A stretch of DNA of 64,000 nt from Ruegeria sediminis (GTDB taxonomy: Bacteria; Pseudomonadota; Alphaproteobacteria; Rhodobacterales; Rhodobacteraceae): NCBI RefSeq assembly GCF_005938215.1, contig NZ_VCPD01000011.1, positions 1-64,000 of the forward strand, written 5' to 3'. The translations under genes and the position numbers were made by a program. Of the stretch, positions 57,004-61,125 are shown piece after piece. The notes under the pieces were generated by a model that worked only from the letters and a program-made list of their open reading frames with translations, had not been told where the DNA came from and ran no database searches. Position 1 is the stretch's first letter; each line of letters starts with the position of its first letter.

Positions 57004-57112
57004 AAATCGGTCTCTCTTATGAAAACGCCGCCCGAAACCGTTTTCCGGCTCGGGCGGCGTCTTGGAAAACTCTGAGGTCTATGTAAGCGGGACTTGGCCC
57101 GCTCACAAGCGC

Positions 57113-57586
57113 TTACTCTGCCGCAGCGGCTTTTGTGACCTTCAGTGAACCGCCCGCTTTCTCGACTGCCTCGACGGCAGCTTTCGAGGCGCCGGTCACT
57201 TCCAGGTTCACCTTGGCCGAGATTTCGCCCTTGGCGAGGATGCGCACGCCGTCCAGCTTGCGGCGCACCAGGCCGCTGGCGACCAGCGCGTCCTCGGTGA
57301 TCGCGGATTTGGCGTCCAGCTTGCCGGCGTCGACGAACTTCTGGATCAGGCCCAGGTTGATGACGGCGAATTCCTTGCGGTTCGGCTTGTTGAAGCCGCG
57401 CTTGGGCAGACGCTGGTAGAGCGGCATCTGGCCGCCTTCGTAGCCGTTGATGGCCACGCCCGAGCGGGATTTCTGACCCTTGATACCACGGCCGCCCATC
57501 TTGCCCTTGCCCGAGCCGGGGCCCCGGCCAACGCGGGTTTTCTTGGGCGCGGCGCCCGGATTGTCACGCAGTTCGTGAAGTTTCAT
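57113..57586 (-). CDS. rplO: 50S ribosomal protein L15
   Basis: 157 residues. [40 protein letters not shown], the [20 protein letters not shown] segment and the C-terminal domain are L15. The frame is open to 57637, but ATG 57586 has AGGAG upstream and the L15 N-terminus. Unusually, rpmD is not just upstream: about 3.3 kb with three unrelated genes intervenes, and rplO has its own promoter-like sequence. Confidence 0.98.
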
Positions 57587-57684
57587 GTCGCTTCTCCTAA
57601 GCCGGATGTGACCCCCGAAGCGTGATGGGCCAAACACGGCGTTTCTTGGTTTTTGATTCTTGTGGCGCTGTCGTCCACCGGGGG

Positions 57685-57713
57685 CGTATAGACCCAGTCC
57701 AAGGATGGTTCAA
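57685..57713 (-). promoter_or_regulatory. Probable sigma70-type promoter of rplO-secY-adk
   Basis: On the minus strand, TTGAAC (57708-57713), a 17-base spacer and TATACG (57685-57690) form a good promoter about 100 bases upstream of the rplO start. The optimal spacing and the break in the operon just upstream make it likely to drive rplO through rplQ. It lies within the divergent spacer between rplO and the cyclase gene. Confidence 0.65.
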
Positions 57714-57783
57714 GGGGTATGCCGCCCGGAGGCGAACGGCAATTGCCCAGGACACCGGCCGATTCCGTGCTAGATTCCCCCAC

Positions 57784-58953
57784 ATGGGCTGGAAACTGGA
57801 CAAGGTCATCGACTGGGTGCTTTCGGAAGGCCGGATGCTGCCCGACCTCGATCACGTCGTCGGCGGGCTGGGAAAGGCCATGCTGGAGGCCGAGGCGCCG
57901 ATCTGGCGGATCCGCCTTGCCATCCGCACCGTGCATCCGCTGGTGACCGCGCTGAGCTCGGCCTGGGAACGGGACAGCGGCAAGATCGACAGCGTCGCCG
58001 CCAGCCACGGGCTGGACCAGCGCCAGGAATTCATCGGCAGCCCGCTGGCGCGGATCGCGGAAACCGGCAGACCGCTGCGGAAATCGCTGACCGATCTCAC
58101 CGACGCGGATCACGTCGCCTATCACGAACTGCGCGAACGCGGCGCCACCGACTATTTCGGCCTGCCTCTCAGGTTCGTCGGCGAAGGCGGCGGCGTGCTG
58201 GTCTTCGTGTCCGACCGCACGGAGGGGTTCTCCGACCAAGACATCGCCGGGTTCGGAAAGATCGGCGCCGCCATCACCCCGATCGTCGAGGTGCACCGGC
58301 TGCGGAACCTGTCGCTGGCGGTGGCCGAAGCCTATCTCGGCCCGCGCACCGGGCGGCGGGTGGTCGGCGGGCAGATCACCCGGGGCGATATCGACCGGAT
58401 CGAGGCGGCAATCCTGATCAGCGACATCCGCGACTGGACCGGGCTGAACGCGCGGCTGCCGGTCGAAGAGACCGTCGCGCTGGCGAACCGGTATTTCGAG
58501 GTCATCGACGCGGCCGTGACCGGGCATGGGGGCGAGATCCTCAAGTTCATCGGCGACGGCGTGCTGGCCATCTTTCCGGCCGAACCCGACATGCGCTCGG
58601 CCTGCCGCCGCGCGCTGAGCGCCGCCCGGGCCGCGCTGGCGGCGGTGCCGCAATCCGAGCTTCGATACGGGGTCGGGCTGCATTGCGGCAGCGTGCTATA
58701 CGGGAACATCGGCTCGGAGGCGCGGCTGGACTTCACCGTGCTCGGCCAGGCCGTGAACATCGCGGCGCGGATCGAGGCGCTGTGCGGCACGACCGGCCAG
58801 CCGGCGATCTATTCGCAGGACTTCGCGGAGATGCTGGAGACCGAGCACCTGCGTCTGGGGGCGTTTCCGCTGAAGGGACTGGACGCCCCGGCGCAGCTGT
58901 TCGCACCGGTTGCCGCCGAACCGGCCAAACCCCCGACCGAACAAATCTATTGA
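57784..58953 (+). CDS. Class III adenylyl/guanylyl cyclase (soluble)
   Basis: 389 residues. A GAF-like N-terminal region (about 40-180) leads into a class III cyclase domain (about 205-360). Catalytic residues: metal ligands D214 (LISDIRDWT) and D258 (FIGDGV), lysine K254 (ILKFIGD), T318 in the second base-selecting position (LDFTVLG), N325 and R329 (QAVNIAARIE). The lysine/threonine pair occurs in many bacterial adenylyl cyclases. It is transcribed opposite to the ribosomal genes and lies in the break between rpmD and rplO. The frame is open from 57622, but ATG 57784 gives the known architecture. Confidence 0.87.
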   Translation: MGWKLDKVIDWVLSEGRMLPDLDHVVGGLGKAMLEAEAPIWRIRLAIRTVHPLVTALSSAWERDSGKIDSVAASHGLDQRQEFIGSPLARIAETGRPLRKSLTDLTDADHVAYHELRERGATDYFGLPLRFVGEGGGVLVFVSDRTEGFSDQDIAGFGKIGAAITPIVEVHRLRNLSLAVAEAYLGPRTGRRVVGGQITRGDIDRIEAAILISDIRDWTGLNARLPVEETVALANRYFEVIDAAVTGHGGEILKFIGDGVLAIFPAEPDMRSACRRALSAARAALAAVPQSELRYGVGLHCGSVLYGNIGSEARLDFTVLGQAVNIAARIEALCGTTGQPAIYSQDFAEMLETEHLRLGAFPLKGLDAPAQLFAPVAAEPAKPPTEQIY

Positions 58954-59219
58954 CATCGGGCCGGACAGGCCGCATACGCCCCCGGTGCCATGTCTGCGGC
59001 GTGAGCAGACCGCGCGTCGGTTCCCTGGTGAACCCGGACTGCGCTGCACCTCAATCTCGACAAGACTGATACCCAGATCACGCGGGGGTCGGCGTGACGG
59101 AGCGCAGGGCCAGAACCGGCGTTGCAGCCCGTCCCGGAAACCAAGCGCGGCGCCGTTCGGGCCGTGCAACGACATCCGTGCGGCTGGCAAGGCCGTCACA
59201 AGAACAAGGAAGACGGTCT

Positions 59220-60431
59220 TTGGACTTCAACATGCTGGGGCTGACGCCCCGTTTCATCGCCAATCTCGAAACGCTCGGAATTTCCGAGCCCACACCGATC
59301 CAGAAGCAGGCCATCCCCCACGCCATGAACGGGCGTGACGTCATGGGGCTGGCACAGACCGGCACCGGCAAGACGCTGGCCTTTGGCCTGCCCATCCTGA
59401 TGGCGCTGATCCGGCAGGAGGGCAGACCCGCCCCCAAATCGGCGCGCGGCCTGGTGCTGGCGCCGACCCGCGAACTGGCCAAGCAGATCTCGGACAACCT
59501 GCGCGCCTATTGCGACGGCACCTCGATCCGGGTCGACCTGGTGGTCGGCGGGGTGTCGATGGGGCCGCAGATCAACCGCCTGAACCGCGGCACCGACCTG
59601 CTGGTGGCGACGCCGGGCCGGCTGATCGACCTGCTGGAGCGCAAGGCGGTGCGGCTGGACCGGACCGGGTTCCTGGTCCTCGACGAGGCCGACCAGATGC
59701 TGGACCTGGGCTTCATCCATGCGCTGCGCAAGATCGCGCCGCTGCTGCCCAAGGATCGGCAGACCATGCTGTTCTCGGCCACCATGCCCAAGCAGATGGC
59801 CGAGATCGCCGCGACCTATCTGAACAACCCGGTCCGGGTCGAGACCACGCCTCCGGGCAAGCCGGCGGACAAAATCACCCAGGGCGTGCATTTCGTGGCG
59901 CAGGCCGAGAAATCGGCGCTGCTGATCGAAATGCTGGACGGCCATCGCGACGAGCTGGCGCTGGTCTTTGCCCGCACCAAGCACGGGGCCGAGCGGCTGA
60001 TGAAGGCGCTGGACCGGGCGGGCTTTGCCGCCGGGGCGATCCACGGGAACAAGTCGCAGGGCCAGAGGGACCGGGCGCTGCAGATGTTCCGGGACGGCAA
60101 GCTGCGGGTGCTGGTGGCCACCGATGTCGCGGCGCGCGGCATCGACATTCCCGACGTGCGCCACGTCTACAACTACGATCTGCCGAACGTGCCCGACAAC
60201 TATGTGCACCGGATCGGGCGCACCGCGCGGGCGGGCCGCGACGGCCGCGCCGTGGCGCTGTGCTCTCCGGCGGAAATGTCGGAGCTGCGCGCGATCCAGA
60301 AGACCATGGCGCGCGACATCCCGGTGCTGGGCGGCCGTCCCTGGACGGTGGAAGAGCCCAAGGCGCCCAGGAAACAGCAGACCCGGCGGCGCCGCCCGAA
60401 CCGCGGGCGGCCCCGCGCCAAGGCCGCATGA
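59220..60431 (+). CDS. DEAD-box ATP-dependent RNA helicase
   Basis: 403 residues. Motifs in order: Q motif GISEPTPIQKQAIPHAM, I AQTGTGKT, Ia PTRELAKQ, GG, Ib TPGRL, II VLDEAD, III SATM, IV, V ATDVAARGID and VI HRIGRTARAG. A basic C-terminal tail (RRRRPNRGRPRAK) is present. I choose TTG 59220, preceded by AGGAAG at the right spacing, because the family begins with (M)DFNMLGLTPRF; ATG 59232 is the alternative. It resembles RhlE-type helicases of ribosome assembly or cold response. It lies in the insertion within the ribosomal operon, with a terminator following. Confidence 0.93.
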   Translation: MDFNMLGLTPRFIANLETLGISEPTPIQKQAIPHAMNGRDVMGLAQTGTGKTLAFGLPILMALIRQEGRPAPKSARGLVLAPTRELAKQISDNLRAYCDGTSIRVDLVVGGVSMGPQINRLNRGTDLLVATPGRLIDLLERKAVRLDRTGFLVLDEADQMLDLGFIHALRKIAPLLPKDRQTMLFSATMPKQMAEIAATYLNNPVRVETTPPGKPADKITQGVHFVAQAEKSALLIEMLDGHRDELALVFARTKHGAERLMKALDRAGFAAGAIHGNKSQGQRDRALQMFRDGKLRVLVATDVAARGIDIPDVRHVYNYDLPNVPDNYVHRIGRTARAGRDGRAVALCSPAEMSELRAIQKTMARDIPVLGGRPWTVEEPKAPRKQQTRRRRPNRGRPRAKAA

Positions 60432-60440
60432 ACGCAGAAA

Positions 60441-60467
60441 GCGCCCCGAAATCGGGGCGCTTTTTTT
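60441..60467 (+). terminator. Intrinsic terminator of the DEAD-box helicase gene
   Basis: GCGCCCCG (60441-60448), loop AAAT and CGGGGCGC (60453-60460), followed by seven T residues. It lies 10 bases after the stop. Read on the minus strand it is followed by TTTCTG, so it may also end the DUF1127 transcript. Confidence 0.92.
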
Positions 60468-60498
60468 CGGCCGGTTCGTTCAGCGGACGCTTGCCGCG

Positions 60499-60714
60499 TC
60501 AGTCGCAGTAGACATGGGCGCGGGCGAGGTCCGCGATGTCGCAGCGCCGGACGCCGATGTCGTTGAGTTCGCGATCGGTGAGACCCTGCAGTTCGGCATA
60601 GGTGCGGTTGTATTCGGCCGCGCGTGCGCGCGCCTGTTTCACGTCCTCGACGAAGGCGCGGATGCGGGCGCCGAGGTTGAAACCGGTGTGCGGGATGTTC
60701 GATACATGTGCCAT
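60499..60714 (-). CDS. DUF1127 small protein
   Basis: 71 residues. The DUF1127/YjiS-like core, with a basic amphipathic helix and the ending YAELQGLTDRELNDIGVRRCDI, is clear. Members are small, basic and often stress-induced; some bind RNA in alphaproteobacteria. ATG 60714 has GAAAGGAAAA upstream; the frame opens farther out, without homology. It lies between the helicase gene and rpmD, in the insertion in the ribosomal cluster. Its function here is unknown. Confidence 0.85.
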   Translation of the reverse strand: MAHVSNIPHTGFNLGARIRAFVEDVKQARARAAEYNRTYAELQGLTDRELNDIGVRRCDIADLARAHVYCD

Positions 60715-60878
60715 TTGTTTTCCTTTCTCGGACCGGGGCGCATTCCCCGGAAATCGTTCTGGTTTTCCTGTCCTGGAACGGCGGAGATAAGGACCGCGGC
60801 GGCGGCCGGCAACGGGCGTTTCGGTCTGGCCGCCATGCGTTTTCGTCATGGCGCGTTTCGTGGGCGCAACCGGCGCAC

Positions 60879-60910
60879 AAAAAAAACGCCCCCGGTTTCC
60901 CGAGGGCGTT
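60879..60910 (-). terminator. Intrinsic terminator after rpmD
   Basis: On the minus strand an 11-bp stem (60885-60895 with 60900-60910, one G-U pair) is closed by a 4-base loop and followed by six to eight T residues. It lies 27 bases after the rpmD stop. A terminator here is unexpected in the spc operon and ends the upstream half of the ribosomal supercluster. Confidence 0.88.
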
Positions 60911-60936
60911 CGTCAGTTCGGATCGTTGAACCGCGC

Positions 60937-61125
60937 TCAGCCGCGTTCTTCGATGATCTTCACCAGATGCGGGATCTTGTTGACCATGCCGCGGACCGAG
61001 GGGGTGTCCTCGAGCTCGCGGGTCTTGTGCATCTTGTTCAGGCCCAGGCCGATCAGGGTTGCGCGCTGCTCGGCGGGGCGGCGGATCGGCGAGCCGATCT
61101 GCTTGACGACGATGGTTTTTGCCAT
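60937..61125 (-). CDS. rpmD: 50S ribosomal protein L30
   Basis: 62 residues. [40 protein letters not shown] and [18 protein letters not shown] are L30. It follows rpsE by 12 bases. In the standard spc operon rplO comes next; here a terminator and an insertion separate it from rplO. Confidence 0.97.

Follow-up and report, generated by a model that had tools for sequence, protein, structure and literature searches.

Transcription signals at a split spc operon

We analyzed a stretch of 64,000 nucleotides from Ruegeria sediminis (contig NZ_VCPD01000011.1, positions 1 to 64,000; hereafter the window), in which the spc operon of ribosomal protein genes is split between rpmD and rplO. Gene order and strands around this site agree with an earlier reading of the same DNA (the original prediction): rplE-rpsN-rpsH-rplF-rplR-rpsE-rpmD is followed by a gap with three other genes, and then by rplO-secY-adk-rpsM-rpsK-rpoA-rplQ. 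Family searches identified rpsE, rpmD, the DUF1127, helicase and cyclase genes of the gap, rplO, secY, adk, rpsM and rplQ, while rplE-rpsN-rpsH-rplF-rplR (the start of rplE falls outside the window), rpsK and rpoA were assigned by reading their translations. The last gene of the upstream unit is rpmD (uL30; 60937..61125, minus strand; TIGR01308, 85.8 bits) and the first of the downstream unit is rplO (uL15; 57113..57586, minus strand; TIGR01071 rplO_bact, 149.9 bits). Rather than being adjacent and co-transcribed as in a contiguous spc operon, these genes are separated by 3,350 bp (57587-60936), in keeping with the approximately 3.3 kb given before, and the gap contains a terminator and a promoter. 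It also contains a pseudoknotted leader directly before rplO which the original prediction had overlooked, and which is found both with and without the split.

With rpsE as bait, 80 loci of relatives were retrieved, most of them from Rhodobacterales genera. Both rpmD and rplO were present in 66 of them, 196 to 7,727 bp apart; the remaining 14 had no rplO in the fetched DNA, which extended at least 9.7 kb after rpmD in 7 cases and less in the other 7. The gap was also studied in 81 Rhodobacterales genomes, namely that of R. sediminis and 80 picked from a set of 244, mostly one per genus with diverged-leader genomes included (72 genera, not a random sample). Both genes were located on one contig and strand in 73 of these, with a gap of 90-20,547 bp (median 1,404); this count leaves out 7 genomes whose rpmD and rplO sit on different contigs, as well as G039 (contig C4, locus L147), in which they lie on opposite strands, 52 kb apart, with an intact rplO leader. 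In other alphaproteobacterial families the distance was 2-174 bp (median 43) in 107 of 107 genomes, which remained from 114 sampled after removal of 2 of the own family and 5 without one or both genes. Between rpmD and rplO, 105 bp apart in one of these outgroup genomes (G253, locus L181), an independent terminator-like hairpin was seen by eye. Thus, a comparison of rpmD-rplO spacing across relatives, as the original prediction had proposed, shows that the split recurs within the order but in none of the other sampled families: it is the usual state of Rhodobacterales and not a peculiarity of one lineage. An assembly join at this position is very unlikely and was rejected: genomes from all over the order show the split, and 8 of the 11 other genomes of the genus carry a DUF1127 gene no more than 1.5 kb 5' of rplO.

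The predicted minus-strand terminator 3' of rpmD was confirmed (60879..60911; a stem of 12 pairs followed by a T run). An intrinsic terminator was found downstream of rpmD in 69 of 79 rpsE-bait loci, locus L005 being left out as its contig ends after rpmD, against 2.4% of shuffles. TTGAAC-17-TATACG is likewise present 5' of rplO as described, with the -35 box at 57708..57713 and the -10 box at 57685..57690 (minus strand), 17 nucleotides (nt) apart. A generic sigma-70 scan did not flag this promoter in the window sequence (0 found, 0.7 expected from shuffles), so that in the window sequence alone it is unremarkable. By comparison of leaders it is more than chance, since TTG-N16..18-TAT occurred at the same place in 105 of 112 unique leaders (that of the window included) against 2.3% of shuffled windows. 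The spacer was 17 nt in 103 of the 105, and the -10 box was TATACG in 90. This set of 112 leaves out 7 loci with short gaps (see below), leaders with N or with less than 260 nt upstream, and duplicates. The G+C-rich stretch downstream of the -10 box is a feature often seen at stringently controlled promoters. From the -10 box, transcription is predicted to start near 57677, where a putative 5'-terminal hairpin of the leader, P0, is located (57663..57677, minus strand). P0 is a small hairpin of the GTGG..CCAC type before an A-rich linker, at the same place in relatives, and some hairpin folded in 104 of 104 5' leader segments (a count made with no shuffle control); it may perhaps serve as a 5' stability element.

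The arrangement resembles the rpmD/rplO locus of Ruegeria pomeroyi DSS-3, with inserted genes and a Rho-independent terminator predicted there (PMC3305630). The two inserted genes of that strain are co-transcribed with each other, and no reverse transcription PCR (RT-PCR) product from them to rpmD or rplO was obtained (PMC3305630). Passages of that paper on this locus deal with one strain and with gene re-annotation, and mention neither an order-wide pattern nor a leader. Separate transcription of the two halves, as originally proposed, is supported by the conserved terminator and promoter and by this negative RT-PCR, which supports it directly for a relative but not for the strain of the window.

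The leader of rplO

The 3' domain of the rplO leader, consisting of a P1/P2 hairpin and the ribosome binding site (RBS), occupies 57587..57640 on the minus strand. A covariance model of the leader (R1) matched it with 79.1 bits (57584-57642), the only match in the own genome at E up to 0.001. The hairpin is made up of P1 (GCCG at 57637..57640 pairing with CGGC at 57601..57604), an internal loop, and P2 (TGGCCC at 57627..57632 with GGGTCA at 57609..57614), and its loop is predicted to base-pair, over about 6-8 nt, with the spacer that separates Shine-Dalgarno sequence and AUG. In the window, the loop CGCTTC (57617..57622) provides the 5' strand of the pseudoknot and GAAGCG (57589..57594) its 3' strand; the latter starts at the last G of the Shine-Dalgarno AGGAG (57594..57598) and extends to position -3, and further in relatives. 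The energy was adequate, at about -10.5 kcal/mol for the pseudoknot helix and about -17.6 kcal/mol for the hairpin (mean z -1.5). The hairpin was rejected as an intrinsic terminator or attenuator; a T run is lacking after P1, where the Shine-Dalgarno sequence stands instead.

In a first round of 67 leaders (66 loci and the window), all carried a perfect complement to the RBS of at least 6 nt, mostly from the hairpin loop, and RNAalifold recovered P1 and P2, with double changes in 5 of 9 pairs. A perfect loop-RBS complement of at least 6 nt was then present in 118 of 118 unique leaders, as compared to 13% of shuffled hairpins; this count leaves out locus L072, unparsed owing to its GCTG P1, whose complement was counted in the first round. 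At -6 to -3 relative to the start codon, pairing was present in 117-118 of the 118, and every position showed two or three Watson-Crick types. In 51 diverse leaders aligned with MAFFT without regard to structure (alignment A3), compensatory double changes were observed in 7 of 7 pairs of the pseudoknot helix and in 6 of 6 pairs of P2, and three of the four P1 pairs were invariant. The pseudoknot helix had 27 doubly changed cells against 7.9 in shuffles and a covariation score of 0.221 against a shuffle mean of 0.074, with none of 500 shuffles as high; its four core pairs held in 203 of 204 cells. When the partner was slid by 1-3 columns, pairing fell from 88% to 27-54%, a control which is biased towards the structure since the strands had been placed by eye on the same sequences.

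R1 matched 239 of the 244 order genomes, and all 114 matches checked against the rplO coordinate ended on the rplO ATG (111 on the G, 3 one base short). The leader thus has a conserved structure supported by covariation and lies consistently upstream of a ribosomal protein (r-protein) gene, as an r-leader would. Of the five genomes without a match, one (G191) gave no rplO match, and the other four have diverged leaders whose loops face compensating RBSs: GACGCAT/ATGCGTC in G110 and G227, TGACGC/GCGTCA in G141 and GTCCTG/CAGGAC in G231. Variants also occur among the 118 unique leaders, four of which (L126, L133, L136 and L138) have a GTCGCA loop facing TGCGAC, and in two metagenome-assembled genomes (L012 and L014) the loop TTTGCTTC faces GAAGCAAA.

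Across the class, R1 gave 3 matches in 192 genomes, all in the own family, under stricter filters that also missed diverged copies. With a broader model (R2), 28 genomes outside the family had weak matches, none above 30.4 bits (E up to 0.05), while the three of the family scored 56-69 bits; of the 15 among these 28 that were compared with a known rplO position, none lay at rplO. In the own genome, R2 had two weak second matches of at most 23 bits. The 60 outgroup rplO upstream regions examined (of 107) showed no such leader by eye, and R2 scored at most 15.4 bits there, in L175 (E 0.006), where the match runs up to the start codon. A leader common to other Alphaproteobacteria was rejected on these searches, and in the samples taken the predicted leader was found only in Rhodobacterales.

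Rfam 15 gave no match on the leader (region searched at E up to 5), and the whole window gave only a tRNA at gathering thresholds. In the loci of 14 relatives, it retrieved only the L2 leader, elsewhere in the cluster, and nothing on the rplO leader. That family (RF03142, L2-Alphaproteobacteria r-leader) was located several kb upstream of rpsE (L007:1628-1701, L031:1023-1145, L047:2340-2406, L064:2366-2434 and L080:2733-2794), so the ribosomal cluster carries more than one leader. A literature search on L15/rplO leaders, on spc in Rhodobacterales and on start sites, covering titles and abstracts with subscription papers and preprints outside its reach, returned no description of the leader. 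We regard it as a candidate r-leader of the RBS-pseudoknot type, outside any named family and apparently undescribed. Table 1 of Eckert and Weinberg 2020, with 20 r-leader motifs, has no bacterial L15/rplO entry (PMC7247131). Like those motifs, the rplO leader is a covarying structure in a 5' untranslated region, here a predicted one, that adjoins an r-protein gene and is lineage-restricted; unlike them, it precedes the L15 gene, matches no Rfam 15 family and, in our samples, was found only in Rhodobacterales. It shares a pseudoknot at the RBS of an r-protein mRNA with the operators of Escherichia coli rpsO (S15) and of the alpha operon (S4), as presented in PMC10931766, and differs from both in its gene, in matching no Rfam family, and in that a hairpin loop pairs with the spacer between the Shine-Dalgarno sequence and the AUG.

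Two further elements were noticed between rplO and secY. TTG..TACAT boxes (57080-57108, minus strand) resemble a secY promoter and a hairpin at once. Where found (117 of 123 loci examined), this element was exactly 28 nt long in all cases except one, and its spacer is a covarying inverted repeat, in which, over 90 unique sequences, 89% of cells were paired against 33-59% when slid; six loci lacked it by pattern (L031, L043, L071 and the diverged L123, L142 and L143). Just before secY (57025-57070, minus strand), a conserved G+C hairpin has a GGAAAAC loop complementary to an upstream GTTTTCC, possibly a second pseudoknotted leader, for secY. The complementarity is broken in several relatives. 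A terminator scan of the rplO-secY intergenic region was positive in 20 of 64 loci, and a SECIS_1 hit on the opposite strand of a hairpin before secY (34.2 bits, below the gathering value of 35) was taken as chance.

Gene turnover in the gap and a possible history of the split

In the window, the gap holds a class III adenylate/guanylate cyclase-domain protein gene (Guanylate_cyc; 57784..58953, plus strand; PF00211, 1.8e-10), a gene for a RhlE-like DEAD-box RNA helicase (59232..60431, plus strand; Pfam/NCBIfam) followed by a terminator-like hairpin recognized in the sequence (60438..60467, plus strand), and a gene for a small DUF1127 protein (60499..60714, minus strand; PF06568, 4e-13). The original prediction had proposed a check for homologues of these genes elsewhere in relatives. 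DUF1127 genes recur in the gaps, also near rplO in congeners as noted above, and the helicase gene recurred after rpmD in 5 of 80 rpsE-bait loci (72-78% identical); for the cyclase gene no homologue was found in the 80 rpsE-bait loci or within 1.5 kb of rplO in the order-genome loci.

Mechanical calling of open reading frames (ORFs), some of which will not be genes, yielded 253 ORFs in the gaps of the rpsE-bait loci. They fell into 204 clusters, 181 of them singletons, which indicates an exchange of cargo at a constant place where the operon was split beforehand. A Pfam scan of 110 longer ORFs, chosen from the 146 longest with near-duplicates and some shorter ones dropped by hand, gave 115 families, none with more than 4 members. 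No integrase or transposase that would point to a mobile-element origin of the cargo was among the 25 of these families that were listed, and terminal repeats were not looked for. The gap looks like a permissive site that may gain and lose ordinary genes rather than the target of one element. Downstream of rpmD in Ruegeria sp. 6PALISEP08 (L041:13167-13463), an L23-like (rplW) ORF was identified on the opposite strand by reading the sequence, and suggests a possible rearrangement of the S10 cluster at the rpmD site. As the arrangement is common to the order whatever the cargo, and the cyclase gene was found in no other fetched locus, the split regulation looks older than the cargo of the window.

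A gap of at most 178 bp was found in 9 of the 73 order genomes; all nine have the pseudoknotted leader and none has the TTG-17-TAT promoter, and leader and split are for this reason separate things. We built a tree of L15 and SecY from 135 sequences, 125 of them from the order, leaving out identical rows and 19 of 159 loci without full rplO and secY (that of G227 among them). Two short-gap genomes, G141 and G110, were sister to the other 123 order members (support 0.55), and 122 members, without these two and without G011, formed a clade with support 1.0; the remaining short-gap genomes in the tree were nested among split ones. Two short-gap genomes are thus apparently basal in the order, a placement that is weakly supported. 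The simplest history is that the leader came first, in an intact operon, and was followed by the split with its terminator and promoter, and then by exchange of cargo with occasional re-closure.

Possible function and alternative explanations

We consider it probable that the spc operon ends at rpmD and that a second unit begins at rplO with a pseudoknotted leader acting as an autogenous translational operator. The upstream operon would end at an intrinsic terminator in most Rhodobacterales, and the unit rplO-secY-adk-rpsM-rpsK-rpoA-rplQ would start at its own promoter, with perhaps a further one before secY. Its mRNA would begin with the leader, the hairpin loop of which would pair with the Shine-Dalgarno-AUG spacer. 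Formation of the pseudoknot would block 30S initiation, or trap the 30S subunit, at rplO, and melting would permit translation; an excess of a product of the unit, with uL15 as first guess, would stabilize the pseudoknot and thereby close a feedback loop. The split, the conserved terminator and promoter, the position of the leader and the covariation of P2 and pseudoknot are observed; repression, autogeny, the ligand and the reach of control along the operon are what we infer from these sequences. Repression or entrapment is the natural reading because the pseudoknot strand is hard to reconcile with an initiating 30S subunit, and entrapment has been described for S15 and S4 of E. coli (PMC10931766). 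As the leader precedes rplO, uL15 is the first candidate for the ligand.

Several observations weigh against this model. P1, being nearly invariant, is uninformative on pairing, and 3 of 500 shuffles had at least as many pair types as the pseudoknot (12). It is a minority of lineages that provides the covariation, because the RBS side is conserved and most leaders share one helix. In a swap test, the hairpins of G110 and G227 paired with standard RBSs over a mean of 1.15 nt (matches below 4 counted as 0) and with their own RBS over 7-8 nt; the gain was small for L117 (a mean of 5.15 against 6 with its own), and single standard partners reached 5-7 for most variants, which makes the test supportive, not clean. 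Folded alone with no pseudoknots allowed, the whole leader of the window prefers other pairings (z -0.17), and P1 was part of the minimum-energy fold in just 62 of 105 leaders; such competing folds may represent the off state or else speak against the model. The promoter-like element before secY could uncouple the later genes (S13, S11 and L17) from the leader. The choice of uL15 as ligand is a guess, and in the 23S rRNA region of one relative a crude search by text turned up a single CCGNG..TCCGG stretch but no clear mimic, the draft genome of R. sediminis itself giving no 23S match.

The original prediction had explained the locus by a recent 3.3-kb insertion that broke a co-transcribed operon, with a new terminator and promoter evolving as repair. 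The cyclase gene, found in no other fetched locus, would fit a recent arrival. This explanation was not borne out and was rejected, since split, terminator and promoter occur order-wide with varied cargo (181 of 204 clusters being singletons), a distribution that contradicts it unless the sampled genomes were split independently many times; we regard it as extremely improbable. Hardly more credible is an incidental match between a conserved spacer and a conserved protein-binding loop. Most leaders do carry the same two strands, but the double changes in all 7 pairs, the covariation score beyond all 500 shuffles and the matching loops of lineages with altered RBSs speak against coincidence.

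Two other alternatives accept the pseudoknot and question its role or its ligand. It might be a constitutive feature of the RBS which sets the translation rate or provides standby binding, perhaps opened by S1, with neither ligand nor feedback. That no ligand is known, that leader and split are separable and that the crude search gave no obvious rRNA mimic would agree with this; the leader nevertheless looks recognized, because compensatory changes maintain P2 and the pseudoknot and because the junction TCCGG and the greater part of P1 do not vary in the 51 diverse leaders, and we think a purely constitutive role unlikely. Somewhat more room must be left, though still as the lesser chance, for a ligand other than uL15, encoded later in the unit or elsewhere (for example S13, S11 or L17, or S4 in trans). 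The unit holds four r-protein genes (rplO, rpsM, rpsK and rplQ), and repression of the E. coli alpha mRNA by S4 works by way of a pseudoknot that covers the RBS of the first cistron (PMC10931766), whereas the rplO leader adjoins rplO in every one of the 114 genomes compared. Our preferred model, an autogenous operator at rplO, can be extended to a uL15-responsive operator which controls the whole unit throughout the order, arose at the base of Rhodobacterales while the spc operon was still intact, rendered its downstream half self-regulating and in this way permitted the split and a gap open to gene turnover; we hold this larger scenario only tentatively and would not expect all of it to be right.

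In E. coli, rpoA lies in the alpha operon. The mRNA of that operon is controlled by S4 (PMC10931766), and a lack of S8 control over rpoA, which the original prediction had suggested, would therefore be no contrast with E. coli. The E. coli spc operon under S8 control, as outlined in PMC10931766, agrees in gene content and order as far as rpmD, and then once more from rplO to secY. Unlike it, the operon studied here is broken at rpmD/rplO, with terminator, promoter and leader, and alpha-operon genes follow in its downstream part. The separation of leader and split makes the breaking of a very conserved operon testable by comparing living lineages. The leader places a candidate operator, defined base by base, ahead of the genes for uL15, SecY and RpoA in a large order of bacteria; should it prove autogenous, this r-leader would belong to a protein outside those of Table 1 in PMC7247131.

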